Source of the DNA: Mytilus galloprovincialis
Lineage: Eukaryota > Mollusca > Bivalvia > Mytilida > Mytilidae
NCBI RefSeq assembly: GCF_965363235.1
Contig: NC_134849.1
Coordinates: 19,742,863-19,806,862, forward strand
Length of the DNA stretch: 64,000 bases
Reading direction: 5' to 3'
In this document: piece after piece, positions 17,246-64,000 of the stretch
Numbering within the stretch: the first letter of the stretch is position 1
How the letters are laid out: each line of letters starts with the position of its first letter
The notes under the pieces: generated by a model
Told to the model about the DNA's origin: nothing
The model's database searches: none
The model's input: only the letters and a program-made list of their open reading frames with translations
Program-made: the position numbers and the translations under genes

Positions 17246-17810
17246 CAGTAAAATTTTATTTGTTTCTTTATGAACAATAATACATAAAATTATTTTTACA
17301 AACTTCTTCGACTTATGGGGTTTATTGTTCATGTAGGATCTTCCGAATTATTTTTAATATTCCCGCTGCGGCGGAGGAGTCATTATGTGTTACCCTTAGC
17401 TGTCTGTACGTCCCTCATTACGTTCGTTCGTACATCCCTTGATTATATACCGTTCTCTAAATTAAGTATTCTCTAACCTAATGTTATGAAACTTATACAC
17501 AATACTTATAAATAAGTACCATACAACATAGACCAAGTTTGGCGTCACCTTTCTTGCTTAATGCACCTTTCCAAGTCATATACAAGCGGGGACACCATCT
17601 GTGTCACTTGTACATATTCTCCACTTTTGTTAACAGAAATGAGATTCTATTACTATCCATATCTTAATCGTATATAATTGTTCCATCATGCGAATCGGTG
17701 TTTTTTTAAACGAAATCGAAAGAATGTTGTGTAAACAGCCGTGATATAGATTACTAAGTAAGAGATATCTGTAATTCTATAATTATCTTAACTTTTACAT
17801 TATTGACAGA

Positions 17811-17873
17811 TATTGGACATTTTACTCTCGTCTTCGAATTCCGTTCCAAACATATACAAACATAGTTATCAGG
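17811..17873 (+). promoter_or_regulatory. P1a: non-coding first-exon/promoter block of the TRIM-like array
   Basis: ATTGGACATTTTACT at 17,812 and the donor AGG|GTAAG (GT at 17,874) match the blocks at 29.9 and 53.3 kb, and less well that at 60.2 kb. The downstream order is also shared: a CTACGAGTGATAAGAT-like tract, then a reversed family A piece. Its first gene downstream is the decayed B-box relic at 18,660. Exon start is not defined. Confidence 0.6.
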
Positions 17874-17974
17874 GTAAGAATTATTTAAACCTCTACCATT
17901 TAGACATATTGCATTTCTATTGTAAAACGTTTTGAAACTACGAGTGATAAGATAGAAATGAGTATCACATTTAT

Positions 17975-18070
17975 GTGATGTGTTTGAGCGTTTGGTTATG
18001 ACATTATTATGGACTTTCCGTTTTGAATTTTACTCAGTGCTCAGTATTTCTGTGATTTTACTTTTTATTT
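17975..18070 (+). repeat. Family B repeat fragment
   Basis: GATGTGTTTGAGCGTTTGGT, then GACTTTCCGTTTTGAATTTT and TTCTGTGATTTTACTTTTT. The same order is seen at 21,003, 27,733, 41,214 and 50,943. Confidence 0.6.
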
Positions 18071-18179
18071 AAAGTCGGGATTCAACCTTGAACAATGGTG
18101 CTGGTGAAATTTATAATTTTAATAACACCAACATTTGAAATATATCGATTTGGAACAGAGTGAATGTTTTAGGAATACT

Positions 18180-18290
18180 ACTGTTACAGTAGTCTTTGCG
18201 ATCCCGAGAATATAACACGCCCACAAGTCAGCACTTTTGTTTTGTCATACATTATCATATATTTATCAGAATAGACAAAATGAAAGAATT
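18180..18290 (-). repeat. Family A fragment, reverse orientation, 3' of P1a
   Basis: GATCCCGAGAATATAACACG and CAAGTCAGCACTTTTGTTTT are the complement of the CTGACTACTGGGCTGGTGAT part of family A. Equivalent fragments sit about 300 bp after P1b (30,180) and P1d (60,525), so the insertion predates unit duplication. Confidence 0.55.
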
Positions 18291-18659
18291 GGTCAAGTTT
18301 GTTCCATTAAAAAGAAATTGCAAGCGTAGATACAAGTCTTGGCTTGGGGGGATAAATTGTACTTTGTACAAAATACACACTCCAGGTTCCTACAGAAAAA
18401 TCGCGGAAAATTTTATTTCGAAGATACTTTACTTCTTGGGATGACAACGTTTATGTAACGCTTGGTGAAACAATTGGCCTAGTCATGGAAACCTTCTTTT
18501 TTTTACACTATATAGATGATGTTCTCCCACTATATTACTTTCGTGACTTTTTTTACATTTTAAATGTAATACTTGGTTATTACAAAATGTATAAAATAAG
18601 CAGACATTAGTCGGTCGTTAATATATCGGAAATTTCTATATCAAATGCTATGTAATGAT

Positions 18660-18870
18660 TTGTGTACTCTTTGTAAGGAAGAAATGTCATAAGTGATGCA
18701 GTCATATGGTTTGCATAATGTGAGATATTTCTTTGTATGGACTGCAAATCCCAATCGTTTTGGAAAAATGAAGAATTACCGTCATTTTTCCAAGTGATGA
18801 GTAATTGGTTGATAACCAATGGTAGACAGTTTGAACTGTACGGTTCTTTCAATGCTTTTGTACACCAACG
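18660..18870 (+). pseudogene. Decayed B-box fragment of a TRIM-like paralogue
   Basis: The DNA aligns with codons 10-86 of the gene at 22,276: CTTTGTAAGGAAGAAATGTC, GTGATGCAGTCATATGG, TCTTTGTATGGACTG, then GAATTACCGTCATTTTTCCA, and finally GACAGTTTGAACTGTACGGT and TCTTTC. Several deletions, frameshifts and stops destroy the frame. There is no coiled coil or propeller after it; a family A repeat starts at once. The minus-strand ORF of 95 codons over this stretch (18,607-18,894) is a shadow. This is the oldest recognisable member of the local array. Confidence 0.75.
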
Positions 18871-18874
18871 TGCG

Positions 18875-19210: not shown

Positions 19211-19397
19211 CCGACGAGCGTCAAAATAAGAGTTATCCTTATAGCAATATAAATCAAATCCCATTATTCGCGTAAATATATACAATACAACCTCACAATA
19301 CTTGATAAAAGTATAGTAATCAGATGCGACCGGCTAGGTTTTAAAACACGCTACAACTTATCTTGTTTACTTAAGCTTTTCAGATCAGTTTTCCAGA

Positions 19398-19457
19398 ACT
19401 TGGACATTTTATTCCCTGTATATCATTTTCTCTTTGTTCACACAACAAACTGTTAGG
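19398..19457 (+). promoter_or_regulatory. P2a: second-subtype first-exon/promoter block, upstream of TRIM-like gene 1
   Basis: GATCAG...CTTGGACATTTTATTCCCT and a GTTAGG|GTAAAA donor (GT at 19,458) align with the block at 39,519. Colinear intron sequence follows in both: a CAGAAAGTGAATACTCATTT-like tract (about 19,618 versus 40,878), GACTTTGACC, then a TGCGTGCTGA / GGCGTGCTGA tract. With the acceptor at 22,260 it would give gene 1 a 2.8-kb 5' UTR intron. Confidence 0.6.
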
Positions 19458-20077
19458 GTAAAATTACATATCAACTTCAGTTGTGTTAGGTAAAAATTCA
19501 CCATATACTTCTAAACGATAAAATAAAATATACTTCATTCAAAATTAAGGGGCGAACAAGTGGGAAATGCCAATATAATTATAATAGACATACATTTGTT
19601 AATTTGTCTGTTGAAACAGAAAGTGAATACTCATTTCCGGAAGATTTGATACACAACAAATTATGACTTTGACCTTACAGCGGATGTGTAACTACACCAG
19701 TTGTTTGTTGAACGATATATTAACTGTCATGTTTTTTTAATAAAATTTGCAGCTGTCTTAGATGGGGTTAACAAAATAGAAAATAATATAAAAAGAAAAG
19801 TTGCGTGCTGAAATATAGAATAGAGTACAGTTCATAATTTGCTAACGAAATCAAAAATAAAGATACAATGCCTAAAAATGGGGAATACAGAAATGAATAA
19901 AAGACAATCCCTCTCTAGACCGCCATGTATTTAATTATATATGAATTGGGTGCTCTCCCTTTGTAGTTTCCGATGATTGTTTTCGTAAGTAAATGTTTGT
20001 TTATGTTTAATTTCATCCAGACAAACTAATATACAAAGTAGCATTAGTTTAATAATTTGTAAATTATAAAAGTGTAT

Positions 20078-21692: not shown

Positions 21693-22261
21693 CTAGCTTG
21701 TTTGAAAAGAACAAGTTTCCGGATATAGTTCACACTTTCCGTTATCAATTTACTATTATTGTACTAATATCTCTTCCTAGTTTGGAAATTACCAGATCAA
21801 ATAATGATTTAAATACGAATAATATACGCTATTCACAGGTACAATGAGGTATGTATGAATACAAAATTCGATATATTTGTTCCGATTCTGTAATAAATTA
21901 GTATGTAAATATTTTCTTCTTTTTTTAACGATAAAAAAAACGGAGATACTACTTTCAGTTACTGACATGCCAGCTCCAGATCTCAATTATACTTATTGAA
22001 ATATTATGTCTGCATCATATGAATATCAAGCACAGTCCCGCCTTTTAGGTGTTTAGTGTCATACCATCATAAAATATATTAGAAGACTAGAATGCTTGGT
22101 TCTACTTTGTGAAAAAAATTTACATTGTAAAATAGAGATATATGCTAAAGATATTTCGTTTTGTTTTACTTATATACCTCATCTGTTCTGTCTTGTGAGT
22201 TTCTTAATACCAAGTTTTGAATAGTTATTGGAAAATATGTCAGTATTCCCTATATTTTCAG

Positions 22262-23970
22262 GAAAAATACATACAATGGCGTCGCCAAATAAGGACTTCT
22301 GTATTCTTTGTAAAGAGGATAACGTCACAAATGATGCAGTCACGTGGTGTACAGAATGCGAGGTCTTCCTTTGTGTGGACTGTGAGAAATATCATAACAG
22401 GTCTAGAGTTTCTAAAGACCATAAGACAATATCGACTGAGAATTATCATGAATTGCCTTCATTTATAAAAGAGACGAGCAATCTGTGTACAGTGCATGAC
22501 AGAAAGTTTGAACTGTACTGTTCTTTCCACGCATGCGCCTGTTGTGTCCATTGTGTCACCGATCAACATCAAACATGTCAGACCATGAAACAATTTTCCG
22601 AAATTCTTAAACAAGTCAAATCATCAGCTGCTGTTCCTCTCCTTGAAAAGGATCTGAATGATCTGAAAGAAAATATTGATGAGATAGTCGAATATTTGAG
22701 AAACAGAATAAGTACAAACACAAAGCAGAAAACCGAGGTAATTCAGACTATTCAATCCATGCGTCAATCCATCGATAATAATCTAAACCAACTAGAACAG
22801 CAACTTCTCCAAGATCTAGAAATTCAACATTCAAAATTGAAATCTGAAATGGAGACGCTATTGCACGAAGTGGATAAACGAGCCATAAAAATAAGGAAAT
22901 TGCAAAACGAATTTTCAAATATGACTAAAAATGCAACAGAACTTCAAACCTATGTAGGTCTGAAAGAAATTGAGAAAATGACAACAATAGAGGCGAACTA
23001 CATAGAAGATTTAAAGCGTGGCTCTGATTTAAACGAACGTAACTTGCTTGTGATAACTTCACCCATTCTTGCATCCATTCTTCATGATGTCAAATCATTT
23101 GGAGAGATCACAGTTGACACCCGTCCTTGTAATGTTAAGGCAAATACCAGAAGGAAAGATCAAGCTCAGTATTTAATTCCTGTTCCAACGATAGATCAAA
23201 TAAAGCCATCGTTCTCAAAAATTCTATCAGTACCTACAGGAAAAAGATTTCGTTTTGTTGATTGTTGCATTCTACCTAATGGTAATATAATAGCTCTTGG
23301 TATAGCTGATGACAAGGGCCATTCATATAATCTAGAGGTGCTTACAAATGATGGAACATTTATTCAAATTGTGTCATTTCAAGAGGAACCTGACAGTGTT
23401 TGTTTTGTTAAAAATGGTACAGTGGCCGTTTCCTTTTATAAGTCGTCTGCAATGGCCCTGGTGGATATAGACCAAAGAAAGGTTATCAGAAATTTTAAAT
23501 TTTCTCATCCATGTGGTGACGTTTCAAGTGATGGTCAAGTGATGGTCATAGCAAAGCCTACAACACAAAATGTCATTGTCATGAACCTTCAAGACTATTC
23601 AAAGAAAAAATTGAGAGGAATCAATCTTCACAATATTTCATTGGTCATGGGAAATATCTACGGCACCAACGTTATAAATAACACAGTAAGCTGCTACAAA
23701 TTGAGTGGAGAAATGCTATGGACATTTGAACTCAAGGACCTTGAGGCACCATTAGGAATTGCATTAGATAAAAACGGATTTATTTTTGTTGCTTGCAGGG
23801 ATAGTAATAAAATAGTTGTAGTTTCGCCTGATGGCATATCAAATAGGACAATATTAAATCACGATAATGGAATCGAAGCTCCTTCCACGGTAGAAATTGA
23901 TATGAAATCTGGAATAATGTTAGTTACAAGTCGAGCCGCTGGTAAGGATGCTTTACTATTTAAACTCTGA
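22262..23970 (+). CDS. TRIM-like gene 1: tandem B-box, coiled coil, NHL-type propeller; CDS 22,276-23,970 (564 aa)
   Basis: The terminal exon starts after TATATTTTCAG (AG at 22,260-22,261), with ATG at 22,276. An in-frame ATG at 22,228 lies in the intron, and both paralogues begin MASPSKDFC, so it was not used. B-box 1: C9, C12, C25, C28, C33, C36, H40, H49. B-box 2: C71, H74, C82, H85, C90, C93, H98, C101. A long heptad-rich coiled coil spans about 115-245, and an NHL-like six-bladed propeller about 300-564 (blade phrases such as DSVCFVKNGTVAVSF and APLGIALDKNGFIFVACRDS). There is no RING domain, so ubiquitin ligase activity is not implied. Such RING-less B-box/NHL proteins are greatly expanded in bivalves; roles in cytosolic scaffolding or immunity are inference. 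The stop is followed within 70 bp by a 24-bp minisatellite. Confidence 0.9.
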
Positions 23971-24034
23971 ATCCCAAGATTTAAATTCATTCCATATATG
24001 GAGCAACCGTAACATTATTATAGGAATATATTGT

Positions 24035-25075
24035 TCATTGCCCTGTAGCTAGTGTACATTGAATCATTACATATATTGTGAATTGTACCATTACCTATAT
24101 TGTGAATTGTACCATTTCCTATAGTGTTAATTGTTCCATTACCTAAAGTGCATATAATGTCATTGCCCATTGTGTATATTGAGTCATTACGTATAGTTAA
24201 TATTACTCATTACCTCTAGTTTTAACTCATTACCCTATAGTGTATAGTGTACCATACCCTGCATTATAAATTGTCAATAACCTATATTGTAAATTGTACG
24301 ATACCCTATATTGTATATTGAACCATCATCTATAGTGTTCGGTGCACCATTATCTATATTGCATATTCTGCCATTGCCTATATAGCTATTGTGTATAAAG
24401 AGTCATTATTTAAGTTAATATTACTCATTACACTATAGTGTATATTGTGTCATTACCTTTAATGTTTATTGTACCATTACATATAGAGTATATTCTGTCA
24501 TTGCCTATAGCTTATATTGTTCCATTGCGTATAGCTTATATTGTTCCATTGCGTTTAGTTTATAGTGTTCCATTGCCTAGACTGTATATTAAGTCATTAC
24601 ATAGAGTGTATATTGAGTCATTACCTTGAGTATATACAATGTATTGTACCATTACTTAGAGTGTATTTTGTACCATTACCTATAGTGAATATTGTACCAT
24701 TACCTATAATGTATATTGTACCATTACATAGAGAGTATATTCTGTCATTGCCTATAGCTTATATTGTTCCATTGTGTATAGTTTATAGTGGTCCATTGCC
24801 TGAGGTGTATTTTCTGCCATTGTCTTTTGTGTATATAGTCATTACCTTTAGTGTATATTCTGTCATTGCCTATTGTGTATATAGAGTCATTACGTATAGT
24901 TAAAATTACTCACTACCCTTTATTTTGTATTGCACCATTACCGATATTATCTATTTTAACAGTACATATAGAGTATATTCTGACATTAGCTTATATTGTT
25001 CCATTGCGTATGGTTTATATTGTTCCATTGCCTATATATCATATTGTTTCATTGCCTATTGTTTATGTTGAAGAT
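24035..25075 (+). repeat. 24-bp minisatellite array 1, 3' of TRIM-like gene 1
   Basis: Degenerate units of the form CATTACCTATAGTGTATATTGTAC or CATTGCCTATAGTTTATATT plus GTTC run for about 1 kb, with a few 2-3 bp shifts. Because 24 is divisible by three, frames stay open and produce artefact ORFs reading variants of VYIVPLPI. It probably lies in the 3' UTR or just downstream. Confidence 0.9.
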
Positions 25076-25107
25076 AAGGCCTATTTCAAAGATTTCAGAT
25101 ACGAGAG

Positions 25108-29690: not shown

Positions 29691-29867
29691 CTTTCTTCCA
29701 CACTTGAAATACTATTTATATATTTACAATAGATAGTATTGTCTAATAGCGCGACTCTGTGTATTTAAAAGAACGTGAATGTAGGGCTTCAGACTTTTAT
29801 TGAAGTTAAATAGCTGCAATGGTTATCTAAATTTTATATATTATAAATAGTATGGGAAATGACACAG

Positions 29868-29941
29868 ATATTGGACATTTTACTTCCTTTTACGCCATTT
29901 TGTAATCAAACCATACGAGCTCAGTTACTACATGTACTAGG
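29868..29941 (+). promoter_or_regulatory. P1b: first-exon/promoter block, unit 2
   Basis: ATTGGACATTTTACTTCCTT at 29,870, donor TAGG|GTAAG (GT at 29,942). TTATAAATAGTA lies about 30 bp upstream at 29,841, a plausible TATA element. The preceding 150 bp (GTGTATTTAAAAGAACGTGA, TTTATTGAAGTTAAATAG) is conserved at 53.1 and 60.1 kb. The first gene downstream is TRIM-like gene 2, about 11.8 kb away because of later insertions. Confidence 0.65.
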
Positions 29942-30179
29942 GTAAGCATTACTTGCAAATAGTATTACTTTTGACATGTTGGACTGTTTGTGTAAATCTA
30001 TTTGTAACTACGACTGTTAAGATAGCATTTTCATATGATTTTTATTAGGAAATGTGTCATATTACATAGTCAATGTCAACATTCACCCTTGAACAAAAGG
30101 GATAATACATTTATGATACAATTCAACCTACTGAGTTCTTTTTAAAATGATATCAATATTTTACAAAATAAATTTAACT

Positions 30180-31632: not shown

Positions 31633-32236
31633 TGTTACGGCCAGAAATCGCCTTTAAATTGTAGCCAACAAAAGACACAAATCAATAGTAAAATTTAACA
31701 ATATTTAATATACAAAAGTTTACAAAAGGTATTACACAAATATTACTGTTAACTTAACTGTCAAAATATGAGTCCAATCTGTTATCTTTATCTGTATCCG
31801 GAAATCTTTCGGAATCCAATTTGAATATTACGTTCACTACTAATGTCACAATCCAGTATGATGTTGTTTGTAGAATAAAAGTGTCAATCCAAATGCTGTG
31901 AATACTAATGTCTATCAATGTCTATGTCCAAGTTTAATTATGAGAGTTTAACTTTAGTGTCTGTATATATAGTGTTTTCATGGAAAATTCTAGAACACTC
32001 TATAATGGAACATTGTGGAAAATCCTGGAAAGTTACAACGGAAGTTTCTGGAATAACGTAGAAGTTTAAATTACGCATCTTTTATAAGGATCATTCTAGA
32101 AAATTCCAATCATTCTGTGATTGTTCCAGTGATTCCTAAACTGCACAATTATAAGATTATTTGGTAAACAACTATCAGGCCATACAACACAAATTAGGCC
32201 AACATAAATAAACATAATAATTACAATATCATAACA
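31633..32236 (-). repeat. 3' LTR (604 bp)
   Basis: In + orientation it begins TGTTACGGCCAGAAATCGCC and ends ACAATATCATAACA, giving 5'-TG...CA-3' termini in either orientation. It contains ATATATAGTGTTTTCATGG and several GGAAAATTCTAGAACACTC-type short repeats. Confidence 0.92.
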
Positions 32237-32247
32237 CCTCCCCCCTT
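32237..32247 (-). promoter_or_regulatory. Polypurine tract
   Basis: Minus-strand AAGGGGGGAGG immediately adjoins the 3' LTR, the expected plus-strand primer position. Confidence 0.8.
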
Positions 32248-32320
32248 AACAGAAGTTTTAGTGTAACAAAACCTTATCATGAATAATATGAACAAAAATA
32301 CATAATATATACAAAGTGAT

Positions 32321-33073
32321 TTAATAAGCTCTAGATAAAGCATCAGCTATTACATTATCTTTACCCTTAATATGTTTTACAATTACATCATATTCCTGTA
32401 ACAATAAACTACACCTAGTCAACCTCTGATTCTTGTTTCTCATTTTATGCATGAAGGTGAGAGGATTATGATCAGTATAAACAAGAATAGGATATACAGT
32501 GGGATTCAAATATACATCAAAATGTTGAAGTGCTGACAACATTGCAAAACACTCTTTTTCAATAGTTGAATAATTTTTCTGATGTTTATCTAATTTCTTA
32601 GAAAAATATGATATAGGTTTCTCAACATTATCATCTGTCTCTTGGTATAAAACAGCTCCAATTCCTACATCGCTTGCATCAACGGCAAGTTTAAATTGTT
32701 TTTCAAAGTCTGGAGTAATCAGAACTGGACTATTAATTAAAAGTGATTTGCTATTTTCAAAAGCGTTTTGACAATTTTCACTCCAGATAAATTTAGAATC
32801 TTTTCGTAAAAGATGAGTCAGTGGTTGAACCACAGTAGTAAAATTTGAACAAAATTTTCTGTAAAATCCAATCATGCCTAAATATCTCATAAGTTGTTTT
32901 CTATTTGTAGGAGGAGGAAATTTGGAAATAGTTTCCACTTTAGCCATAATAGGTTTCACTTGACCTTGGCCAACTGTATGCCCCAAATAATCAACAGTGG
33001 CCTGACAAAGTTCACTTTTACCAAGATTAACAGTCAAATTTGATTGTGACAATCTATCAAAAGTATCATACAA
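32321..33073 (-). CDS. pol part 2: end of reverse transcriptase, connection and RNase H (250 aa)
   Basis: Thumb/connection motifs include LGHTVGQGQVKP, RYLGMIGFYRKFCSNF and PLTHLLRKDSKFIWSENCQ. The RNase H motifs of Ty3/gypsy elements are all visible: KLAVDASDVGIGAVL, ISYFSKKL, EKECFAML, VYTDHNPLTF and a terminal KGKDNVIADALSRAY before the stop. The frame differs from the upstream ORF because of a single-base shift near 33,080. No integrase follows. The ORF has no start codon of its own (it opens at a TTG). Confidence 0.88.
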   Translation of the reverse strand: MYDTFDRLSQSNLTVNLGKSELCQATVDYLGHTVGQGQVKPIMAKVETISKFPPPTNRKQLMRYLGMIGFYRKFCSNFTTVVQPLTHLLRKDSKFIWSENCQNAFENSKSLLINSPVLITPDFEKQFKLAVDASDVGIGAVLYQETDDNVEKPISYFSKKLDKHQKNYSTIEKECFAMLSALQHFDVYLNPTVYPILVYTDHNPLTFMHKMRNKNQRLTRCSLLLQEYDVIVKHIKGKDNVIADALSRAY

Positions 33074-33078
33074 ATGTG

Positions 33079-34512
33079 TTAATGCTGTTCCCAGCTATCA
33101 CTACATACAATTAGATCATCAATATAAGCATAACAACAGTTTAAATCTTTTATAACATTATTGATCATTCTTTGAAATGTAGCTGGTGCACTTTTCATGC
33201 CAAACGGCATTACAGTATATTGAAATAAGCCATCTGGTGTAACAAAAGCTGATATTTCACGAGCTCTCTGTGTCAATGGAACTTGCCAATAACCTTTCAA
33301 CAAATCAAATTTGCTCACAAATTTTGCTTGACCAATGTTATCAATACAATCGTCTATCCTTGGAATTGGATAGGAATCAGATTTTGAGATTGAATTTACT
33401 TTTCTGAAATCAGTCACGAAACGAAAGGTTTTATCTGGTTTTGGCACAAGGAGACAAGGAGAGCTCCATTCACTGTTACTCGGCTCAATAATATCATTGT
33501 CAAGCATATATTTAATTTCTTTTCTCATAACTTCAAGTTTGAGTGGATTGAGCCGGTAAGGATGTTGCTTAATTGGAGAAGCATCTCCTACATCAACATC
33601 ATGACAAACAGCAGTAGTTTTGTTTGGCACATCTGGAAAAAGATTTTTAAAAGAAAATACCAAAGTTTTTATTTCTTCTCTACGATCAAAAGACAGATGT
33701 GCAAGTTTTGAGTCTAAATTTGACAAAATTTCTGAATTTTTCAATCTAACTGTCTCTTCGATAGTTTTAGAACTAAAAGGTGGTTGAATTACATCTGGTT
33801 TGTCATGATTGTTCTCAAATTTAACCATGCCTAAAGTGGCAACTGGTTTACTCTCACATTCATTAGTACGCTCAGTGCTTTGGTTTTTGTAATTTCCACT
33901 TGAAGTATTAACATTTTGACCCTTGAAACTTCTTTTATGTGAAAGGGTATAATTATCTGAAATTACAGCTGCATCATGTATTGTCCCAACAGTTTTGTCG
34001 TCTAAATGTGTTTTTAAGTCAAAATGAACACATTGTTTGAACTCTTCTAATAACATCAATTGTCTTAGGTTATCAAAATTGTTATCTGTTTTCTTTGAAG
34101 TGAGCCATTTATCAAATAGATCTTCTTTTTCCCGAGCAAATTCCACATAGGTTTGCGAATCAAACTTTTTATAAGATCTAAATTTCTGTCTATATGCTTC
34201 TGGTACTAGCTCATAAGCTTTCAAAACTTCCTGTTTTACCATATCATAATCAGAACTTTTTTCTGATGGAAGTGCGGAATAAATGTCAGCGGCATTACCC
34301 TCAAAAACACTTTGCAGCATCGTAGTCCAATATGGTTTCGGCCATTTCAAATTATTTGCAATTTTTTCAAACTGTGGAAAATATTTATCGACTGTTTTTT
34401 CACAAAATCTGGGAACCAAACGTATATTTTTTGCTGCATCAAAATAATCTGATTTTGACTGGACTTTAGTGTTGCTTTCTTCTTTGACCATTTCAATTTT
34501 CAGTTTTTCCAT
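33079..34512 (-). CDS. gag part 2 plus reverse transcriptase palm (477 aa)
   Basis: Residues ~1-200 are gag-like: a SCAN-like helical region with FPQFEKIANNLKWP, LQSVFEGNAADIYSALP and EAYRQKFRSYKKFDSQTYVE. From about residue 300 comes a Ty3/gypsy reverse transcriptase: SPCLLVPKPD, FRFVTDFRKVN, SKFDLLKGYWQVPL, VMPFGMKSAPATFQRMI and the catalytic YIDDLIV. The ~100 residues between, where a zinc knuckle and an aspartic protease would be expected, hold neither. ATG at 34,512 directly follows the amber stop of the preceding ORF in the same frame. The ORF ends with TAA at 33,079-33,081, just past YIDDLIVCSDSWEQH. Confidence 0.88.
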   Translation of the reverse strand: MEKLKIEMVKEESNTKVQSKSDYFDAAKNIRLVPRFCEKTVDKYFPQFEKIANNLKWPKPYWTTMLQSVFEGNAADIYSALPSEKSSDYDMVKQEVLKAYELVPEAYRQKFRSYKKFDSQTYVEFAREKEDLFDKWLTSKKTDNNFDNLRQLMLLEEFKQCVHFDLKTHLDDKTVGTIHDAAVISDNYTLSHKRSFKGQNVNTSSGNYKNQSTERTNECESKPVATLGMVKFENNHDKPDVIQPPFSSKTIEETVRLKNSEILSNLDSKLAHLSFDRREEIKTLVFSFKNLFPDVPNKTTAVCHDVDVGDASPIKQHPYRLNPLKLEVMRKEIKYMLDNDIIEPSNSEWSSPCLLVPKPDKTFRFVTDFRKVNSISKSDSYPIPRIDDCIDNIGQAKFVSKFDLLKGYWQVPLTQRAREISAFVTPDGLFQYTVMPFGMKSAPATFQRMINNVIKDLNCCYAYIDDLIVCSDSWEQH

Positions 34513-34983
34513 CTATAGCCTTTCTCTCATTTCAAGTTCTTTTAATTTTAATTCATCTTCTTTTATTTTCTCCCTCTCCTTCATTTCCAGTTCTTTTAAT
34601 TTAAATTCATCTTCTTTTTCTTTTCTCTCTATTTCCAACCTTTCCTTCATTTCCAGTTCTGCTTGTTTTAATTTAAATTCATCTTCTTTTCTTTTCTCCA
34701 TCTCCTTCATTTCCAATTCTTTTAGTTTGAGTTCATGTTCTAATTCAAGCTGTTTTAATTTAAAGGCGTCAATATTTTCGACCTTAAGTTCAAGAGCCTC
34801 TTCACCTAAAATTTCTGCGTCAACTAATTTGTCTATAACCAAATTTTTGATAATTTGTTTTCTCATAGATACTTTAAAATCTAATTTCAGATGTTTAGCA
34901 AGCAACACTAATTCCTCTTTCTTTAAATTATCAAAACTCTCCAGGTCTGGCGTTTTCAAATATTTACCAGCATCAAATGCCAT
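34513..34983 (-). CDS. gag part 1: SAP-like head and charged repeats (156 aa)
   Basis: MAFDAGKYLKTPDLESFDNL is followed by KKEELVLLAKHLKLDFKVSM, a SAP-like helix pair, then about 80 residues of Glu/Lys-rich tandem repeats with the core LKELEMKE. The repeats predict a long charged coil. The ORF ends in a TAG (34,513-34,515) that is in frame with the next ORF. The 173-codon ORF on the opposite strand is a shadow of the repeats. Confidence 0.8.
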   Translation of the reverse strand: MAFDAGKYLKTPDLESFDNLKKEELVLLAKHLKLDFKVSMRKQIIKNLVIDKLVDAEILGEEALELKVENIDAFKLKQLELEHELKLKELEMKEMEKRKEDEFKLKQAELEMKERLEIERKEKEDEFKLKELEMKEREKIKEDELKLKELEMRERL

Positions 34984-35052
34984 TTTGTAGAATTTTGTTG
35001 GCTAGTTATAATAAAAATACTAAACAAATTTTGAATAAAATATTTTTAAGAT

Positions 35053-35070
35053 CTCCCGGACGAGCCCCCA
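35053..35070 (-). promoter_or_regulatory. Primer binding site, tRNA-Pro type
   Basis: The minus strand reads TGGGGGCTCGTCCGGGAG, five bases inside the 5' LTR. The first 17 bases match the complement of the 3' end of animal tRNA-Pro (the primer used by murine-leukaemia-type retroviruses), from memory. Confidence 0.75.
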
Positions 35071-35075
35071 ATTTC

Positions 35076-35678
35076 TGTTACGGCCAGAAATCGCCTTTAA
35101 ATTGTAGCCAACAAAAGACACAAATCAATAGTAAAATTAACAATATTTAATATACAAAAGTTTACAAAAGGTATTACACAAATATTACTGTTAACTTAAC
35201 TGTCAAAATATGAGTCCAATCTGTTATCTTTATCTGTATCCGGAAATCTTTCGGAATCCAATTTGAATATTACGTTCACTACTAATGTCACAATCCAGTA
35301 TGATGTTGTTTGTAGAATAAAAGTGTCAATCCAAATGCTGTGAATACTAATGTCTATCAATGTATATGTCCAAGTTTAATTATGAGAGTTTAACTTTAGT
35401 GTCTGTATATATAGTGTTTTCATGGAAAATTCTAGAACACTCTATAATGGAACATTGTGGAAAATCCTGGAAAGTTACAACGGAAGTTTCTGGAATAACG
35501 TAGAAGTTTAAATTACGCATCTTTTATAAGGATCATTCTAGAAAATTCCAATCATTCTGTGATTGTTCCAGTGATTCCTAAACTGCACAATTATAAGATT
35601 ATTTGGTAAACAACTATCAGGCCATACAACACAAATTAGGCCAACATAAATAAACATAATAATTACAATATCATAACA
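35076..35678 (-). repeat. 5' LTR (603 bp)
   Basis: It is identical to the other LTR apart from AAAATTAAC for AAAATTTAAC and TGTATATGTCC for TGTCTATGTCC. On the transcribed strand it starts TGTTATGATATTGTAATTAT. Confidence 0.92.
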
Positions 35679-39515: not shown

Positions 39516-39518
39516 AGT

Positions 39519-44475: not shown

Positions 44476-44504
44476 TTTAAGATTGTTCATGTCGTTGAAC
44501 ACAC

Positions 44505-44585: not shown

Positions 44586-44954
44586 GTTCTACGACAAGAA
44601 AAACCTTAAAATATGCATTATCTGATTGATATACCGTCAAATAAACATAATTTTCAACAAAGATTTGCAGAATTAGCATCCAATTTCACCGACCTACTTG
44701 TAATGACATTTTTATTACGGAAAATTGCGATTTTTTTGGTTAAACCTATCAATATGAACTTTAAAAAAAAATTCTCTAATTATCAAACGAATTAAATGAT
44801 GAGGTTAATAATACTTTTTATTTTTAACAATGAAAATTAGGATCTTATTTTATGCCTTGGAGCATATTTCATTGAAACATGGTATTGTCTTAGAGATTTT
44901 TCATAAGAATGACCTATCGTTCTGAAAGAAAATATCTCCATATAGGTATATAAA

Positions 44955-45225
44955 TTGTTGCATTGCCTTCCTTTTCTATTGTTCCATTGTCTACAGGTTA
45001 TCGTTCTATCGTTAACGTTGCCATATCTTATTTTATTTCATTGCCTATAGTTTTTATTGTTCCATTGCTTATGGTTTATATAATTTCGTTACCTATAGAT
45101 TATATTGTTCCATTACCTAAAGTGAATATTGTTCCATTACCAATAGCGAATATTGTGCCATAGCCTATGGTGTATAGTGTTCCATTGCCTATAGTTTATA
45201 TTTGACACAAAACCTTTAGATTATT
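44955..45225 (+). repeat. 24-bp minisatellite array 2b
   Basis: About ten degenerate units of the TTCCATTGCCTATAGTTTAT type lie beyond about 370 bp of unrelated spacer. Unit 1 has no counterpart here, so this is unit-2-specific expansion. Confidence 0.85.
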
Positions 45226-45399
45226 GTCTAATCATCTAAAGTATATCACTGATTATTTAACAAAAATGTGAGAGGGATTTTCATTGACTCATGATTACAT
45301 TAGTTTGGACAACACAGAGTTTAATTGTAGGAGAAAGAGTGACTTTGGCAACAACCATAGACACAGTGGGTTTCCTTTGTGAGGATATTGTAAAACATC

Positions 45400-46420
45400 A
45401 GTAGTTTATGTTGATCCAATGCGTAAACTTATATTGTTTCGTTCCCTATATTTTATATTATTCCATAGCGCATAGTTTTTGTTGTTCATTTGACAATAGT
45501 CTATGTTGAATCATTGCCTATAGTTTATTGTTATATTGACTATCGATTATAATATTCTATGGCGTATTGTTTCACTACCTTTATTTTATATTGTTCCATT
45601 GCGTATAGTTTATACTGTATCGTTGCCTATAATCTATATTGTTTCATTGCCTATAGCATATCTTGTTCCATAGCGTATAGTGTATTTTTTCCATTGCCTA
45701 TAGTTGATATTGTTCCATTGCCTATAGTTTATATTTTTCCATTACCAATAATGTAAATTGTTACATTGCCTATAGTTTATGCTGTTCCATTACATATAGT
45801 GTATATTGTCACATTGCCTAAAGTTTATATTGTTCCATTGTCTATATTTTATATTGTTCCATTACCTATAGTTTATATTGTTCCATTACCAATAGTGTAT
45901 AGTGTAACATTGCCTATAATCTATATTATTCCATTGCCTATAGTGTATATTGTTCCATTACCTATAGTTTATATTTTTCCATTACCAATAGTGTATATTG
46001 TTACATTGCCTATAGTTTATATTGTTCCATTGCTTATAGTGTATATTGTTACATTGCCTATAGTTTATGTTGTTCCATTGCCTATAGTGTATATTGTCAC
46101 ATTGCCTATAGTTTATATTGTTCCGTTGCCTATAGTTTATATTGTTCCATTACCTATAGTTTATATTGTTTCATTACCAATAGTGTATATTGTTACATTG
46201 CCTATATTTTATATTGTTCCATTACCTATAATTTATATTGTAACATTACCTATAGATTATATTGTTCAATTGCATATTGTTTCGTTGTATATATTTCATA
46301 TTATAGTTTATGTTGACTCATTGGCTATATAATGCATATAATGTATATTGTTCATTGTCTATTTTTCATATTGTTCCATTGCCTAAGTGTATGTTGTTTC
46401 ATTACCTATTTATATTTGAT
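45400..46420 (+). repeat. 24-bp minisatellite array 2c, most homogeneous block
   Basis: Around forty units of ATTGTTCCATTGCCTATAGT plus TTAT run for 1 kb. From about 45,766 to 46,332 they keep perfect phase, giving a 188-codon ORF of PLPIVYIV-like octads that is an artefact of the period (24 = 8 codons). Alternation of TTCCATTGCC and TTACATTGCC units suggests a higher-order 48-bp repeat in part of it. Confidence 0.9.
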
Positions 46421-53080: not shown

Positions 53081-53267
53081 TCTTTGGTTTCGATCGCTAT
53101 TTTTCAAACATTATGTATATGTTTGCAATAAATAATTGTTTATTGGTACAATTCAATGCACTTAAAACGAAATCAGTGTGGGGTTCATAAAATTTTATTG
53201 AAGTTAAAAGGCAGCCGCTGTTATCATTTAAATTAAAGATGTTATTTATAGTAAGGCAAATGACACA

Positions 53268-53328
53268 GATATGGGACATTTCACTTCCCTTTACGCAGTT
53301 TGTTATGACTACGAGCTGAGTTATTAGG
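53268..53328 (+). promoter_or_regulatory. P1c: first-exon/promoter block of TRIM-like gene 3
   Basis: GACACAGATATGGGACATTT, CACTTCCCTTTACGC and donor TTAGG|GTAAG (GT at 53,329). GTTATTTATAGTA lies about 30 bp upstream. It is the only first-exon block seen before gene 3; no P2 copy was found between 53.5 and 55.9 kb. Confidence 0.62.
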
Positions 53329-53558
53329 GTAAGCATTACTTCCGACATTATAACATTTTAACCAATTACCCTGTCATTGTGAATTATTTGTTTAATTACT
53401 TTTTATTTGTTTTTTATTAGGACATATGTCACATTACTTAGTCAATGTCAAAATGACTCTTGAACAATAATGCTAATGCATTTATAATTTAAACATGAAC
53501 TACATTTGTAGATTTTTTTTCACCAAAGAATATCAATATTTTACCCCCCAAAAATAAG

Positions 53559-55800: not shown

Positions 55801-55877
55801 ACTGCTATTATTTCACGATTTTTTAAAAATATTATTATCTCAAAAGTATGATCTATAAAAAGAAACTTTTATTTCAG

Positions 55878-57272
55878 AAATGATGATATAAAATGGCATC
55901 GCCAAGTAAGGATTTCTGTACTCTTTGCAAAGAGGATAATGTCACTAGTTATGCAGACACATGGTGTACTGAATGCGAGGTCTTCCTGTGTGTAGAATGC
56001 GAGAAGCATCATACAAGGTCTCGAACATCTAAAAACCATAAAACAATATCGGCTGAGAATTATTATGATTTACCTTCATTTATAAAAGGGACGAGCAATA
56101 TGTGTAAAGTCCATGAAAGAAATTTTGAATTGTACTGTTCTTTTCCTGCATGTGCTTGCTGTGTACATTGCACCACAGATAATCATCAATTATGTCAGAC
56201 CATGAAACCCCTATCCGACGTTTTAAAGCAAGTCAAATCATCCGCTGCGGTTCCTCTCCTTGAAAAAGATTTGGAGGATCTTAAGGAAAACTTTGAGCAA
56301 ATAACAGAATATTTAAGAAACAGGATAAGTACAAATACAAAGCAGAAAACAGAGGCTATTCAGAATATCCGATCCATGCGTAAATCCATCGATGATCACA
56401 TAAACCAACTAGAACAGCAACTTCTTAAAGATCTAGAAATTCAATATTCAAAATTGAGAACTGAAATGGAGACATTCTTGTACGATGTAAATTCACGCGT
56501 AAAAAAGATCAGGAAATTGCAAAGCGAATTTTCAAATATGACTAAATATGCAACTGAACTTCAAACTTATGTAGGTCTAAAAGAAATTGAAAAAATCACA
56601 TCACAAGAAGGAAATTATATAGAGGATTTAAAGCGTGGTTTTGAATTAAACGGTTATTTACTTGTGACAATGACACCTGCTGTTGTTGCCATTCTATATG
56701 ATGTCAAATCATTTGGAGTAATTACAGTTAACACCCGTCCTTGTAACGTTCAGGCAAATGCAGGAAGAACAGATCAAGCTCAGTATTTAGTTCCTGTTCC
56801 TACAACAGACCAAATAAAGCCATCGTTCTCAAACACTCTTAAAGTGCCCAAAAGAAGAAGATTTCGTTTTGTTGACTGCTGCATACTACCTGATGATAAA
56901 CTTATAATTCTTGGTAGAGATGACAGCAACAGATGCTTAAACTGTCTGTTAATTTTTAGAAATGATGGAACATTTATCAGGTCTATTATATCATTTAAAG
57001 AGATCCCTGACAGTGTCTGTTTTGTTAAAGATGGTATAGTTGCTGTTTCTTTCTATTATGCACATGAAGTAGCCCTTATTGATATAGACCAAAGTAAGAT
57101 TATCAGAAAATTCCAATTTACTTATGCATGTGCTGGTGTTTCGAGTGATGGTCAAGTTCTGATCATAGCAATGCCTACTGAAAAAAATGTCATTGTCATG
57201 AACCTTGAAAACGTAGAAGAAATCTATGAACACAGTATTTCATTGTCAAGGGGAAACAGTCTTTCAAAGTAG
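55878..57272 (+). CDS. TRIM-like gene 3: truncated paralogue, CDS 55,893-57,272 (459 aa), probable pseudogene
   Basis: An acceptor TTTATTTCAG (AG 55,876-55,877) and MASPSKDFC start match genes 1 and 2. B-box 1 ligands are intact. In B-box 2, H85 is replaced by proline (CSFPACACCVHC), removing one zinc ligand. The coiled coil (about 115-245) is complete. The propeller keeps its first blades (RFVDCCILPDD, DSVCFVKDGIVAVSF, VSSDGQVLIIA) but ends at residue 459, about 100 short of its sisters, with a novel ISLSRGNSLSK tail. Downstream DNA holds the rest in broken form. It is still open for 459 codons, so a shortened protein is possible, but the lost ligand and half-propeller suggest decay. Confidence 0.8.
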
Positions 57273-57890
57273 CTATGAATTAAATGAGGAAATGCTTTAG
57301 ACCTTTGAACACCAGGACATTGAAATGTCATCAGGAATTACAATAGATAAAAACTAATCGTTTGCTAATGTTCTGTGTATATATACATTTCAGGTATAAG
57401 TCATCCTTAAAATTAAAGATATTAACTTAGGAAGATGTTGACTCTCATTTATGACGGATATAGTACCCGTCTACGTTCTTCACTAATTAAACTCATCATA
57501 GATACCAGGACTAAATTTTGTATCTACGCCAGACGCGCGTTTCGTCTTCAAAAGACTCATCAGTGACGCTGAAATAAATCCAAAAAAGTTCAAAAGGCCA
57601 AATAAAGTACGAAGTTGAAGAGCATTGAGGATCAAAATTTCTAAAAGTTTTGCCAAATCCCGCTAAGGTAATAAGCCACAATATCTGGTCAACATTTATA
57701 ACTCAGACTCAACAGAACATTCCTGAAGATTTACTTTCTTATAGACTTGACTTTATTTGCGAAAGTTTTTTTCGTATCCTGAGATAACTAATCATTTACT
57801 AATGTACTGTGTGTGAAATATGAAATCTCGACTTATGTTAGTTTCAAGTCAAACAGAGGGTATGGACTCGATATCATTTAAACTCTGAGT
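57273..57890 (+). pseudogene. Relic 3' end of TRIM-like gene 3, split by a family A repeat
   Basis: 57,275-57,355 matches the propeller segment around CYKLSGE..LWTF..APLGIALDKN of its sisters, but with a frameshift, TGG changed to TAG and another stop. After about 120 bp of unrelated DNA and the family A insertion (57,485-57,690), 57,830-57,890 matches the very end: GTCAAACAGAGGGTATGGAC, then TCATTTAAACTCTGA, equal to the ...LLFKL stop. No 24-bp minisatellite follows. Confidence 0.78.
57485..57690 (+). mobile_element. Family A repeat inside the gene 3 relic
   Basis: AACTCATCATAGATACCAGG, CGCCAGACGCGCGTTTCGTC, GTGACGCTGAAATAAATCCA, AAGTTGAAGAGCATTGAGGA and TTTTGCCAAATCCCGCTAAG. Less diverged than most copies in the window. 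Confidence 0.72.
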
Positions 57891-59535: not shown

Positions 59536-60231
59536 AGTCAGCTATACAAAGCCTAGAAATGATAAACCTCAAACAATCCAATCGAGAAAAATAACTGCCT
59601 AATTTATGTACAAAAATGAACGAAAAAACAGCCTTTAAAAACACTATTAAAAAAATACATAACATTAATGAAACCCTGACTGTAATCTCCCTTACACAAC
59701 CCAGATTCGCGTCTATTCATATCTGACTAACTCTTTATTTTTGGTTTCAGAGTTCCCGTCCAGTCATAAGGGTTCAGGATCCGCCTAACATATTTGCTGG
59801 TCATCAATCACTTACAAGTTTAACCTTATAACTTGCAACAAGCAGATATACCAGGTGATCAATAAGGAACCATGACATTTTTCATTATGATACCAACATC
59901 ACTTTCAGTTAAGATATGTATGTTCATTCCAAAAACGTATCCTAAATTAAAGTTTTTAAATATGATTTTTTTTAAGTATTATAAAAAAAAAATCGTGAAC
60001 GACTTATGAGATTTATTGTCCTTTATTAATCTATCGATTATTATTTGCAATTGAAAAACTAGTCATATGTAGTAAACAGTTTATATAATTCCCCAATTGT
60101 GCAACTCTGTGTATTTAAAACCAAATTAATATATCGTAAACAAACTTTTGTTGAAGTTAAAAGGTGATCACATTTCAATTACATTTATCATTTAAATCTT
60201 AAAAATTTATTGTAAGGTAAATTACACATAT

Positions 60232-60292
60232 ATTTACCATTTTACTTCCCTCTGAAAGTTGGTTTCCATGCACCCATAAGCTTAGTTATTTT
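60232..60292 (+). promoter_or_regulatory. P1d: first-exon/promoter block with mutated splice donor
   Basis: TTTACCATTTTACTTCCCTC and AGCTTAGTTATT align with P1b and P1c, and the 200 bp upstream (GTGTATTTAAAACCAAATTA, TTTTGTTGAAGTTAAAAGGT) is conserved. At the donor position TTATTAGGGTAAG has become TTATTTTAAG, so the GT is gone. It implies a further gene unit to the right. Confidence 0.55.
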
Positions 60293-60524
60293 AAGTATTA
60301 CTTACAAAAGTTAAAAAAAAATCACCTATCAGATTGTTTAACCTTTTTGTGACTCCGACTGTTAAAATATCAGTTATTTGTTTTTTTGGGGGGAGCTGAG
60401 TCACATTTAGTCAATGTTATGATTCACCATTGGTGATAATGCATTTCTAAATTAAACACAAACTTCATTTCTGGATTTCTTTTAAAAAGCATATGAACAT
60501 TTTACAATTTTTATTTTAAAGATA

Positions 60525-60612
60525 CCACTGTTAGTGGACTTTTCGTCCCACAGAGTCTCACCAACCCAGCAGTCAGCCCTTTTTTGTTGACATGAATTAT
60601 CATCGATACGTT
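60525..60612 (-). repeat. Family A fragment, reverse orientation, 3' of P1d
   Basis: GTTAGTGGACTTTTCGTCCC, ACAGAGTCTCACCAACCCAG and CAGTCAGCCCTTTTTTGTTG. Orthologous by position to 18,180 and 30,180. Confidence 0.6.
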
Positions 60613-61184
60613 TGTGTTCTATAAACATACTATGTACTTAAAATTATGATCGAAAGGTAAAAACTGTTACAAGCAAAACATATATCAAAGTGTTGGAGTG
60701 CACCAGGAAAAAGTTTTCAACCGTAGTTGTGTGTATTATTTCAAATATTATTTAAATCATAGTTTTAATCTATGTAACTTAAAAATAGTTGTCCTATCAG
60801 CTATCTAATTAAACCACCTTATTCCGTTTATTTTTATTTTCATCTTAATTTCAAACTGTGTTGGTTTTTGGGTTTGTTTTTTTTTTTTTTGGTTTTTTTA
60901 TTGAACCCTTACAGGAAATTGCGAATATCCATACACTCAATGAACCCAGCCATATTTTGTATATGTCTGTCGCAAGTTTGTTATTCAGCAGTTGTCTTCT
61001 GTTCCCTTTTTTATTTTTTCTATAATCGTATTAGTTTGTTTTCTTATATAAATGGGTTCACATTATTCATGTCGAAACCTGTAATGGCGGACTATACTGT
61101 ATATGTTTAGTATTTATGGTTAAATCCTGAATAGAGACCTATAATAACTTATTTTGAATTGTTTTACATTGTCATACGGGGCCT
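60613..61184. other. Segmental spacer after P1d
   Basis: ACCCTTACAGGAAATTGCGA, CCCAGCCATATTTTGTATAT and TTATGTCGAAACC-like sequence match 30.65-30.80 kb and then 37.00-37.11 kb without a break. This is the uninterrupted version of the site where unit 2 gained 6.2 kb. Confidence 0.6.
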
Positions 61185-61320
61185 TTTATAGCTGACTATG
61201 TGGTAGGGGCTTTGCTCATTGTTGAAGGCCGTACGGTGACCGACAGTTGTTAATGTCTGTGTCATTTTGGTCTCTTGTGGACAGTTGTCTCATTGGCAAC
61301 CATACCACATCTTCTTTTTT
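61185..61320 (-). mobile_element. Family C, SINE-like repeat, reverse orientation
   Basis: GGGGCTTTGCTCATTGTTGA, AGGCCGTACGGTGACC, GTCTGTGTCATTTTGGTCTC and CAGTTGTCTCATTGGCAACC are the complement of 20,078-20,190, better preserved. Confidence 0.72.
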
Positions 61321-61397
61321 ATATATTTAGCGTCGTCATTTGAAAACTGAAGGATAATTGTCTGATTGGCAATACTATCGCAACTCTTTGTTTTTGT

Positions 61398-62785
61398 CCA
61401 GCCCTCGACTTTAGTCGAAAAGGCGAAACATAACGATCCTACATTCCATCGTCGTCGTTGGCGTCGTCGTCGGCGGTGGCGTCCACAAATATTCACTCTG
61501 TTGTTAAATTTTTTGAAATTTTAATAACTTTCTTAAACAATCCTGAATTTCTACCAAACTTGGACAGAAGCTTGTGTACGATCATGAGATAGTATCCAGA
61601 AGTAAATTTTGTAAAAATAAAATTCCATTTTTTTCCGTATTTTACTTATAAATGAACTTAGTTTTTCTGCTGGGGAACATAACATTCACTCAGTGGTTAA
61701 AGTTTTTAAAATCTTTATAACTTTCTTAAACTATCCTGGGTCTGTACTAAACTTGGACAGAAGCTTGTTTATGATCATGATATAGTATTCAGAAGTAAAT
61801 TTTGTAAAAAAAAAAATCTATTTTTTCCTTATTTTACTTTTAATTGGACTTATATGTTATATTTCATATGGCTATAAAAGGGGAGATTTGGCATGCCACA
61901 AAACCAGGTTCAACCCGCCATGTTTTTCTTTAAAAATGTCCTGTACCAAGTCAGGAATATGGCCTTTGTTATATTATAGTTCGTTTCTGTGTGTGTTGCA
62001 TTTTGGCGTTGCGTCGTTTGTTTTCTCTTAATTTTGAGTGTAAATTCGCATTGCGATAAGACGTGCCACGGTACTTGTCTATCCCACGTTCATGTATATG
62101 GTTTTGATGTTGTATTTGCTTTTCTCGTGGGATTTTGTCTGATGCTTGGTCCGTTTCTGTGTGTGTTACATTGTAGTGTTGTGTCGTTGTTCTCCTCTTA
62201 TATTTAATGCATTTCGCTCAGTTTTAGTTTGTTAACCCGATTTTTTTTTTGTCCATGGATTTATAAGTTTGAACAGCGGTATACTACTGTTGCCTTTATT
62301 TATATTTTCTCCCTTTGTGGTTAAAGCTTTTAAAATCTTAATTACTTTCTTATAATATTTTGGATTTGTACTAAACTTGATCAGAAGCTTGTTAATGATC
62401 AAAAGCTAGTATCTGGAAGGAAATGTTTTAAACAAATGAATCCAGTTTTTTCGTATTTTACTTTTAAATGGACTCATCTTTTCAACCAGAAAACAACACA
62501 TTCACTCTGTGGTTAAACTTTTTAAAATTTTAATAACTTTCTTATACTATTTTGTTTTCCTTCAGTTAGCATTACACTCAGTCTGCAGTTAAAGTTTTTC
62601 AACAATAATTAGATTCATAAACTATCCTGGATTTTTACCAAACTTGGACAGAAGCTTCTTTCAATCAAAAGATAGTATCAAGAGGAATATTTCTATTGAT
62701 TTATTTCCTCATTTTTGTTGAGCCTGCGATTAACAGAAAAAGTAGGCGAGACACTGGGTTCCGTGGAACCCTCAAGAATTTTTAA
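61398..62785 (+). mobile_element. Molluscan repeat with ~190-bp subrepeats and a nested insertion
   Basis: It starts with a TCGACTTTAGTCGA hairpin and GTCGTCGTTGGCGTCGTCGT. Subunits contain ATTCACTCTGTGGTTAAA, ACTAAACTTGGACAGAAGCT and TCCATTTTTTCCGTATTTTA, four or five times. It ends GAGCCTGCGATTAACAGAAA, AGTAGGCGAGACACTGGG, TTCCGTGGAACCC. The 68-codon Arg-rich minus ORF at 61,290-61,496 is an artefact of the (CGTCGT) tract. Confidence 0.7.
61855..62305 (+). mobile_element. ~450-bp element nested in the repeat at 61,398-62,785
   Basis: GCATGCCACAAAACCAGGTT, CCTGTACCAAGTCAGGAATA, TCGTTTCTGTGTGTGTTGCA, GCGATAAGACGTGCCACGG and CAGCGGTATACTACTGTTGC are in order. The outer repeat's subunit resumes at CTTTGTGGTTAAAGC. 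A 72-codon ORF here is not a gene. Confidence 0.65.
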
Positions 62786-64000
62786 TTTTGGAATTTCAAC
62801 ACACATTTAATATTTTGATTTACAGAAACTGCTTATGTTCTTACATTTTATCATTTTTCAGTTATATCAAACTCTTCGTGTACAATTGTAAAAGATTGAC
62901 TAATTCTCTCATTATGTTTTTAACAGCCAAGATAACTGTATTAATACAAAATTAGACCAAGTTTAAATAATTTGTGGATTCTATTATTTGAAATAGCTGT
63001 TGAACTGTTATAAATAGTGTATATTTCATAAAGTGCTGATGCGTTTTAAAGCGTTCACCAATAAATCTTTTTTACGAGTAAAACAGCACCCATGAAGCAA
63101 TAGGGAGAGAAGAAATTATACGAAAGAATTCAATGGCAATATTTAGACAAAAATAACCATGTACACATAATTTATGATAGTTCATTTACTTTATATGAAT
63201 TGTCTTCTTATATTAAAAAACCCAACAATGTCAGATAAAAATGATCAACTAAAGTATTACATTCCTGATAGCCAAAAAAGCACCACTCTCAAATTAGTTC
63301 TTATGTAAAAGTTCAGTATAAATGTTTCCAAGTATATAAAGCTTTAAGCTATCTGAGAATTATGTTAGCAAAACAACTTATTAAGCTACATTAATCATTA
63401 CATAGTAATCTTTATAATCAAATACACTAAGTCTAACCGTATCAGAGTCATTGATTCTGTGTATTATATTTTAAGAAGTTAATTCAAACACATAATGTTC
63501 AGATTTTTTTAAGAGTATATTTGCATGCACATATCTGGGACTGATACTTTCATTTATAGGTAATAAATGTATTGATATAATTTCGTTGATGATATAATGT
63601 AAGAATTGTATTTGATATATCTTTTAGAGTATATATTTTTATACAAAGTAATCTTCGATAGGCGGCTTGTCACAGTCAGTGGACAATATTTCAGATCGCA
63701 GCTTGTCATCGATAAATACATTTTAGGCCGGGACTGTCACACGAAACAAGTGGCTCCCAACATCCCGACTACTTTAAATAGGAGAACTGCAGCGATCTTG
63801 GAAATTCTGTTCAAAATGTTATCGATGTTTACCTTTAATTGAATAAAAGTTAAATATACTCCAAACACTTCCATTCTCAATTTAACCTTGGTATTTTCTA
63901 GAACTATTATGTGAGTTATTTGTATTTTGTAGTATTAATGTGTTTAACTGAACAAACGTGTTTCGTTGAGTGGTTAAAAATAGAAATGAACAATGATGAA
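62786..64000. other. Segmental spacer at the right edge
   Basis: ACAGCCAAGATAACTGTATT, AAACAGCACCCATGAAGCAA and ACAAAAATAACCATGTACAC match 37.3-37.55 kb in order. A 78-codon ORF at 63,606-63,842 has a less AT-rich second half (GRDCHTKQVAPNIPTTLNRR) but no recognised family. By analogy with unit 2, a P2 block and a TRIM-like gene may follow outside the window. Confidence 0.5.

Follow-up and report, generated by a model that had tools for sequence, protein, structure and literature searches.

What is the short sequence that recurs upstream of the tandem B-box/NHL genes of the mussel Mytilus galloprovincialis, and why do two of these genes have it twice? We analysed a 64-kb stretch of DNA (C12:19742863-19806862, hereafter the window) together with the animal's own genome (1.385 Gb, 331 contigs); all genome-wide counts come from this one genome. 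Sequence comparisons indicate an element that is real, tied to genes and conserved, and wider than the first-pass annotation of the window had supposed, since it occurs genome-wide and is common to a cluster of cGAS-like receptor (cGLR) genes. The explanation that we find probable as a whole is that this element represents the promoter-edge core of a non-coding first exon, duplicated along with its gene and common to two families.

On the forward strand of the window, TTGGACATTTTACTTCC has six matches with at most three mismatches (starting at 17813, 19400, 29871, 39521, 53272 and 60233), against 0.54 expected, and none of 100 shuffles reached six. The six places reported earlier are therefore borne out, but the exact 17-mer is present only in P1b; P2b has one mismatch, P1a, P2a and P1c have two, and P1d has three. 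The division into two subtypes also holds, as homology within a subtype is long, whereas P1 and P2 have only 29-52 bp around the motif in common. As proposed, the blocks are embedded in longer conserved sequence. The P1 copies, including a fifth one (P1e) upstream of gene 5 in locus L011, align in nine of ten pairs over 123-324 bp, with no alignment reported at E 0.05 for P1b and P1e, and P2a and P2b align over 269 bp at 68% identity.

All six blocks lie on the plus strand. P1a (homologous stretch 17806-17955) has its motif at 17813-17829 and the GT of its donor at 17874; P1b (29765-30082; TATAAATAG) has the exact motif at 29871-29887 and its donor GT at 29942; and P1c (53157-53431) has them at 53272-53288 and 53329. 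These three carry the GGGTAAG donor that had been assigned to every block. The donor of P2a (19322-19583, motif 19400-19416, GT at 19458) is the weaker GGGTAAA, and P2b (39445-39706, motif 39521-39537) reads AAGGTAAG with its GT at 39583, so that its exon would end at 39582 and not at 39592. P1d (60110-60417), with a decayed motif at 60233-60249, has no GTAAG or GTAAA within the 101 bases read and therefore looks dead; the next coding sequence (CDS) is that of gene 4, beyond the window. On the receiving side, the predicted start of each CDS 14-15 nt after a TTTCAG acceptor agrees with the sequence, with acceptors ending at 22261 (TTTTCAG), 41728 and 55877 and ATG codons at 22276, 41744 and 55893 in genes 1, 2 and 3, respectively.

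Is the motif tied to genes outside the window as well? The exact 17-mer has 19 copies in the genome, whereas its reversed control has none. Each of the 19 is followed in sense by a CDS no more than 12 kb away, in 17 cases that of a B-box gene (on six contigs) and in two that of a cGLR gene. For block assignment we used 79 B-box CDSs (one placed by hand) and 11 cGLR CDSs; a protein search of the genome had yielded at least 78 B-box relatives (78 of 2616 candidates scored). An extended pattern, GTCCN6TTGGACATTTTACTTCC, gave 68 matches with up to three mismatches (27 for the reversed pattern). With up to two mismatches, 31 of 32 matches were located in sense within 20 kb upstream of a family CDS, where 0.02 would be expected, and 0 of the 32 upstream of an antisense CDS. 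Twenty-nine of these 31 precede B-box CDSs (on C2, C3, C6, C8, C11, C12 and C14) and two precede cGLR CDSs; the single match without an assigned CDS is at C3:79458378. The extended motif had no match in viral contigs.

A motif present on many contigs could belong to a dispersed repeat unrelated to the genes, a case that the first-pass annotation had named as fatal to its proposal. A genome search with P1b DNA, however, returned two matches, P1b itself and P1c, and one with P2b DNA returned P2b itself, all within the array of the window; as P1a, P1d and P2a were missed, these searches were limited in their reach. Furthermore, all 19 exact copies have a family CDS assigned to them, and the flanks of the motif are close to chance identity between groups of blocks. 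Contradicted by both the genome search and the flanks, the repeat reading was rejected, and we give it next to no probability.

The conserved part is short. Counting from TATTGG, most of the information in 20 non-redundant blocks falls between about -10 and +35, and there is a second, lesser peak at the donor. The core of about 29 bp has the consensus GTGTMCCAGWTATTGGACATTTTACTTCC. Core identity between groups ranges from 61 to 90% and is at least 70% in 18 of 21 comparisons, the only three below being P1-P2, P1-cGLR and P2-cGLR. The 18 bases after the core are 66-86% identical among groups A-D and 23-50% where P1, P2 or cGLR blocks are involved. Between groups, positions -100 to -45 and the intron show 25-37% identity, with 29% expected by chance.

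Of the 30 B-box blocks outside the window cluster, 20 went into a position matrix (PWM), whose scores are therefore independent only for the window, C11:37 and cGLR blocks. On reversed sequence the matrix reached a maximum of -2.3 over 629824 positions. Nine B-box blocks scored 56-73, a pair at C11:37.12 Mb 38 and 42, the six window blocks 6.7-33.8 (6.7 for P2a, 18.0 for P1a, 33.8 for P2b) and P1e 9.8. Among the cGLR blocks, two scored 29.6 and 31.9, and three weaker ones 1.3-9.6.

The surroundings of the core point to a non-coding first exon. Outside the window cluster, 29 of 30 B-box blocks have a GTAAG or GTAAA donor 46-67 nt after TATTGG; the C11:37.12 Mb pair is counted apart from these 30. 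The acceptor comes after the donor and an intron, 12-18 nt before the start of the single-exon CDS. By regular expression, 28 of 30 CDS loci have a YYNYAG acceptor no more than 30 nt ahead of the matched start; of the other two, L021 has lost its acceptor and L018 escaped the expression. This layout of block, donor and acceptor before family members genome-wide supports the proposal that a RING-less B-box/NHL family has inherited the blocks as non-coding first exons. The first exon would be spliced to a second exon containing the whole CDS, and the block would form the promoter edge of the first.

Transcription starts about 30 nt after a TATA box. A strong TATA box (score of at least 9) is located 22-41 nt before TTGG in six of nine group A, four of five group B, two of five P1 and all five cGLR blocks, and from this spacing we infer that the start site would fall within the core or right beside it. 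In these copies it would sit 22-41 nt downstream of the TATA box, at or near the presumed start, and it may be read by one or a few common transcription factors or by the initiation machinery. ACTTCC/TTTTACTTCC may be ETS- or ETS/IRF-like. An inverted CCAAT box (ATTGG) was also considered and is unlikely to be the shared part, given that the two strongest cGLR copies read GTTGG and TTTGG.

The same features bear on two other readings of the block. It could be an internal non-coding exon with an acceptor (CCAG or CTAG) just before the motif and the true promoter further upstream. Many copies do have CAG or TAG directly before the motif, and groups C, D and P2 have no TATA box. This AG is not kept, however, with CTG in its place in three D-group blocks and one cGLR block and no AG in three other cGLR blocks, and a strong TATA box lies 22-41 nt upstream in 17 of the 42 blocks scored. 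We consider an internal exon quite improbable. The core might also act in RNA and not in DNA, as a 5'-untranslated element for translation or stability or as a small-RNA target. It is at or near the beginning of the presumed transcribed exon, and TGTCC-N8-GGACA can pair as a short hairpin in some copies. We rejected this hairpin as a conserved structure, since, of 42 blocks, 13 retain all five pairs and 21 retain the fourth. Moreover, the right arm is steadier than the left, and the core extends upstream to about -10, beside TATA boxes in part of the copies. An RNA element is thus an unlikely explanation, if a little less so than an internal exon.

The second family came to light 1.5 kb downstream of a block at C12:56092963. 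The gene there matches PF03281 (25.1 bits) and PF20266 (63.7 bits; cut-off 24.1 for each), the Mab-21 nucleotidyltransferase and C-terminal domains, as well as cGAS and cGAS-like receptor 1 (cGLR1) chains. It belongs to a cluster at C12:55.87-56.25 Mb with at least 11 cGLR CDSs, six of which have internal stops. In the five cGLR blocks read, a TATA box precedes the motif by 22 nt and a GTAAGT donor follows the TATTGG position by 125-135 nt in all five, and a CTAG acceptor stands 11-13 nt before the ATG in all three gene starts read. Apart from their longer first exon, these genes are laid out in a way similar to the B-box genes. A cGLR-type pattern had seven matches genome-wide, all in this cluster, and none in the control; together with the block at C12:56105708, which the pattern missed, eight blocks are known there. 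To which gene the block at C12:55946579 belongs is unsure, because the next listed CDS is 17 kb away with another block between. With six of its 11 listed copies carrying stops, the cluster (C12:55869369-56252575) is also a place to compare live and dead promoters.

Since the cGLR cluster carries the same core in a similar layout, both gene sets would be under common control. The same word in the first exons of TRIM-like genes and of this cluster suggests one promoter switch for two probable immune sets. In a bolder version, which is tentative and whose chances we rate as somewhat short of even, the word of about 29 bp near the transcription start would define a mussel regulon of two unrelated, lineage-expanded families of probable nucleic-acid or pathogen sensors. 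Promoter capture, or convergence on a single factor, would have brought the two together, and new copies would join by carrying the first exon.

Several observations weigh against a promoter core common to these genes. No strong TATA box was found in any of the 13 C, three D and two P2 blocks, and since the spacing between TATA box and motif varies from 22 to 41 nt, a start set by TATA would not lie at a constant distance from the motif. Among matches with exactly three mismatches, 29 of 36 had no assigned CDS and seven were placed like the stronger ones; given also the 27 control matches at up to three mismatches, weak copies are mostly noise. The match at C7:11.47 Mb, without an assigned gene, scored 8.8 with the PWM, like the weakest cGLR copies. 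As the matches are related by duplication, the excess upstream of genes is an association and not 31 independent gains. With the extended pattern, a block could be assigned to only 30 of the 79 listed B-box CDSs and five of the 11 cluster cGLR CDSs, and the core was not found in 19 distant B-box upstream regions (about 1 kb each) or in 12 further cGLR upstream regions (1.5 kb each, one inside the cluster). Because introns are long, absence within 1-1.5 kb says little about these genes. Many core-less upstream regions have, by eye, an acceptor-like AG directly before the start, so the layout with a non-coding first exon is probably wider than the core.

The upstream element, far above chance and kept where flanks have diverged, is borne out for one clade of the B-box family. 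No B-box or cGLR CDS was found in about 4 kb downstream of the matches at C3:79.46, C7:11.47, C14:66.91 and C12:71.09 Mb, and a match at C4:83.74 Mb (L058; PWM score 2.0, no family CDS in 4.4 kb) was taken as chance. Two distant B-box genes, L083 (C6:52449730-52450760) and L084 (C6:52878500-52879530), have an upstream core-like stretch with 6-7 mismatches, which may be chance or a diverged core; the reversed control reaches six mismatches too. The gene L036 (C3:95575283-95576941), a near-identical twin of the gene at C3:95580671, has no block within 1.5 kb upstream, and its promoter exon may have stayed behind in the duplication.

Inside the clade, first exon and CDS appear to have travelled together. 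In a CDS tree of 30 genes, block subtype changes nine times, compared to a mean of 18.6 after shuffling, and none of 200 shuffles was as low; near-copies inflate this test, the half-site preceding the core served to assign the subtypes by eye, and some labels depend on blocks several kb upstream. Exon 1, intron and CDS would then have been copied as one piece within the B-box/NHL clade, across at least seven contigs, and due to this joint copying members would still share one switch while the identity of their proteins has dropped to about 50%.

Why, then, do some genes have two blocks? Four such genes are known: genes 1 and 2 and those at C3:94961254 and C11:37122433. The first-pass annotation had seen alternative promoters in P1 and P2 of genes 1 and 2, inherited by duplication of a P1-P2-CDS unit, and had offered as a second option that P1a once belonged to a relic at 18.66 kb. 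Both genes do carry a P1 and a P2 block, in the same order, and GTAAG donors are kept in P1a, P1b and P2b. Furthermore, in the CDS tree the partner of gene 2 is gene 5 (support 87/92 for DNA, 99/95 for protein), which fits an older P1+P2 unit with P2 lost in other copies. Between P1a and P2a, however, we found the relic of a B-box CDS (18657-18856, plus strand), frameshifted and covering approximately residues 7-86; its main part, 18683-18856, matches by tblastn at E 3e-10, and 18657-18683 is a second short piece. The two blocks at C3:94.96 Mb also enclose a relic, a weak one (residues 203-243, E 3e-4), so that two of the four genes have one. At C11:37.12 Mb no relic was found between the blocks, and the proximal block has no donor (the distal block has one); no CDS relic was found between P1b and P2b of gene 2 either. 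P1b is 11.9 kb from gene 2, with a young retroelement in between, and a clade of genes 1 and 2 is not rejected (p-AU, from the approximately unbiased test, 0.118). We therefore regard alternative promoters inherited with the unit as unlikely.

The relic at gene 1, the weak one at C3:94.96 Mb and the proximal block without a donor at C11:37.12 Mb make the assignment of P1a to the relic the better reading. We favour two-block genes as mostly collapsed tandem units with leftover promoter exons, in which the CDS between two units would have been lost and the spare block may remain an alternative start. That the CDS tree joins gene 2 to gene 5 and not to gene 1 counts against such a collapse; gene conversion in arrays can blur trees of this kind.

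The retroelement between P1b and P2b (31633-35678, minus strand) has long terminal repeats of 604 bp that are 99.7% identical. Its open reading frames contain SCAN-like, reverse transcriptase and RNase H domains, with no integrase match among the three frames scanned, and with its short internal part it is probably young and non-autonomous. A minisatellite with a 24-bp period follows both gene 1 (24027-25070) and gene 2 (43894-46420), as a common downstream landmark.

The genes themselves are all on the plus strand: gene 1 at 22256-23970 and gene 2 at 41723-43423 (559 aa), each with a single-exon CDS, and gene 3 at 55872-57272 (459 aa), a shortened, frame-broken copy. Further pieces of the gene 3 CDS lie at 57268-57378 and 57817-57885, in differing frames after residue 455. 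Although gene 3 is broken (55893-57885), its P1c block retains the core with two mismatches and the donor. All three proteins have B-box matches, and genes 1 and 2 a weak NHL match, which Pfam did not return for the truncated gene 3. No RING domain was detected in genes 1-3 or in 14 family members scanned; zf-B_box and an ANCHR-like B-box were present in all 14 members at E 0.01, and in gene 3 zf-B_box is slightly under and the ANCHR-like match above the cut-off. Single-sequence NHL matches in Pfam are weak (seven of 14 at E 0.01), but a profile of 14 relatives matches the solved NHL domains of TRIM2, TRIM3 and TRIM71, a B-box chain of MID1, and chains of TRIM3 and TRIM28. These TRIM28 and TRIM3 matches reach into the part that follows the B-boxes, where a coiled coil may lie, and gene 3 matches PML_CC. 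By its domains, the family is RING-less, TRIM-like and of B-box/NHL type. Uncharacterised B-box proteins similar to that of gene 2 are found in M. galloprovincialis (85% identity), M. edulis (81%), M. californianus (80%) and M. coruscus (78%).

The closest likeness to the mussel element is the conserved sequence element (CSE) in the variable-exon promoters of clustered protocadherins, a word of about 20 bp kept before tandem family members while the flanks diverge. Unlike there, each mussel gene has its own CDS and acceptor, members are spread over several contigs, the word is common to an unrelated protein family, and the binding factor is putative. The proteins resemble TRIM-NHL proteins (TRIM2, TRIM3, TRIM71) in their B-box and NHL-type propeller, perhaps also in a putative coiled coil, and differ in lacking a RING among the 14 scanned and in forming a large family with single-exon CDSs. 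Large TRIM sets diversified through duplication are also known from the FinTRIM genes of teleost fish (PMC2657112), although these belong to a different clade and the accessible portions of that article mention no shared first-exon promoter word. Some bivalves have more than 200 Mab-21 family cGLRs (PMC9980059), to which the C12:56.09 Mb gene, a candidate enzyme, would be added by its Mab-21 domains and cGAS/cGLR1 matches; the main text of that paper, as available, does not contain the word promoter. Among the best-matching open-access papers listed, we found none on a promoter word common to bivalve TRIM-like or cGLR genes (subscription papers are outside this scope), and the part of the motif that a text match located in a mussel paper (PMC2689276) belongs there to a primer for a different gene.

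The surprise in our findings is that two probable immune families appear to be linked. To our knowledge, the coordinated expression of large, fast-changing immune-type families of bivalves is little explored. A long and well-kept word predicts the first exons and start sites of many copies, marks dead copies where core or donor is lost, and may serve as bait for the controlling factor. The arrays further show a possible route to stacked promoters, in which a coding unit decays between two promoter exons. Finally, the presence of the word before both TRIM-like and cGAS-like genes predicts that these would be expressed together, which ordinary RNA-seq can test.

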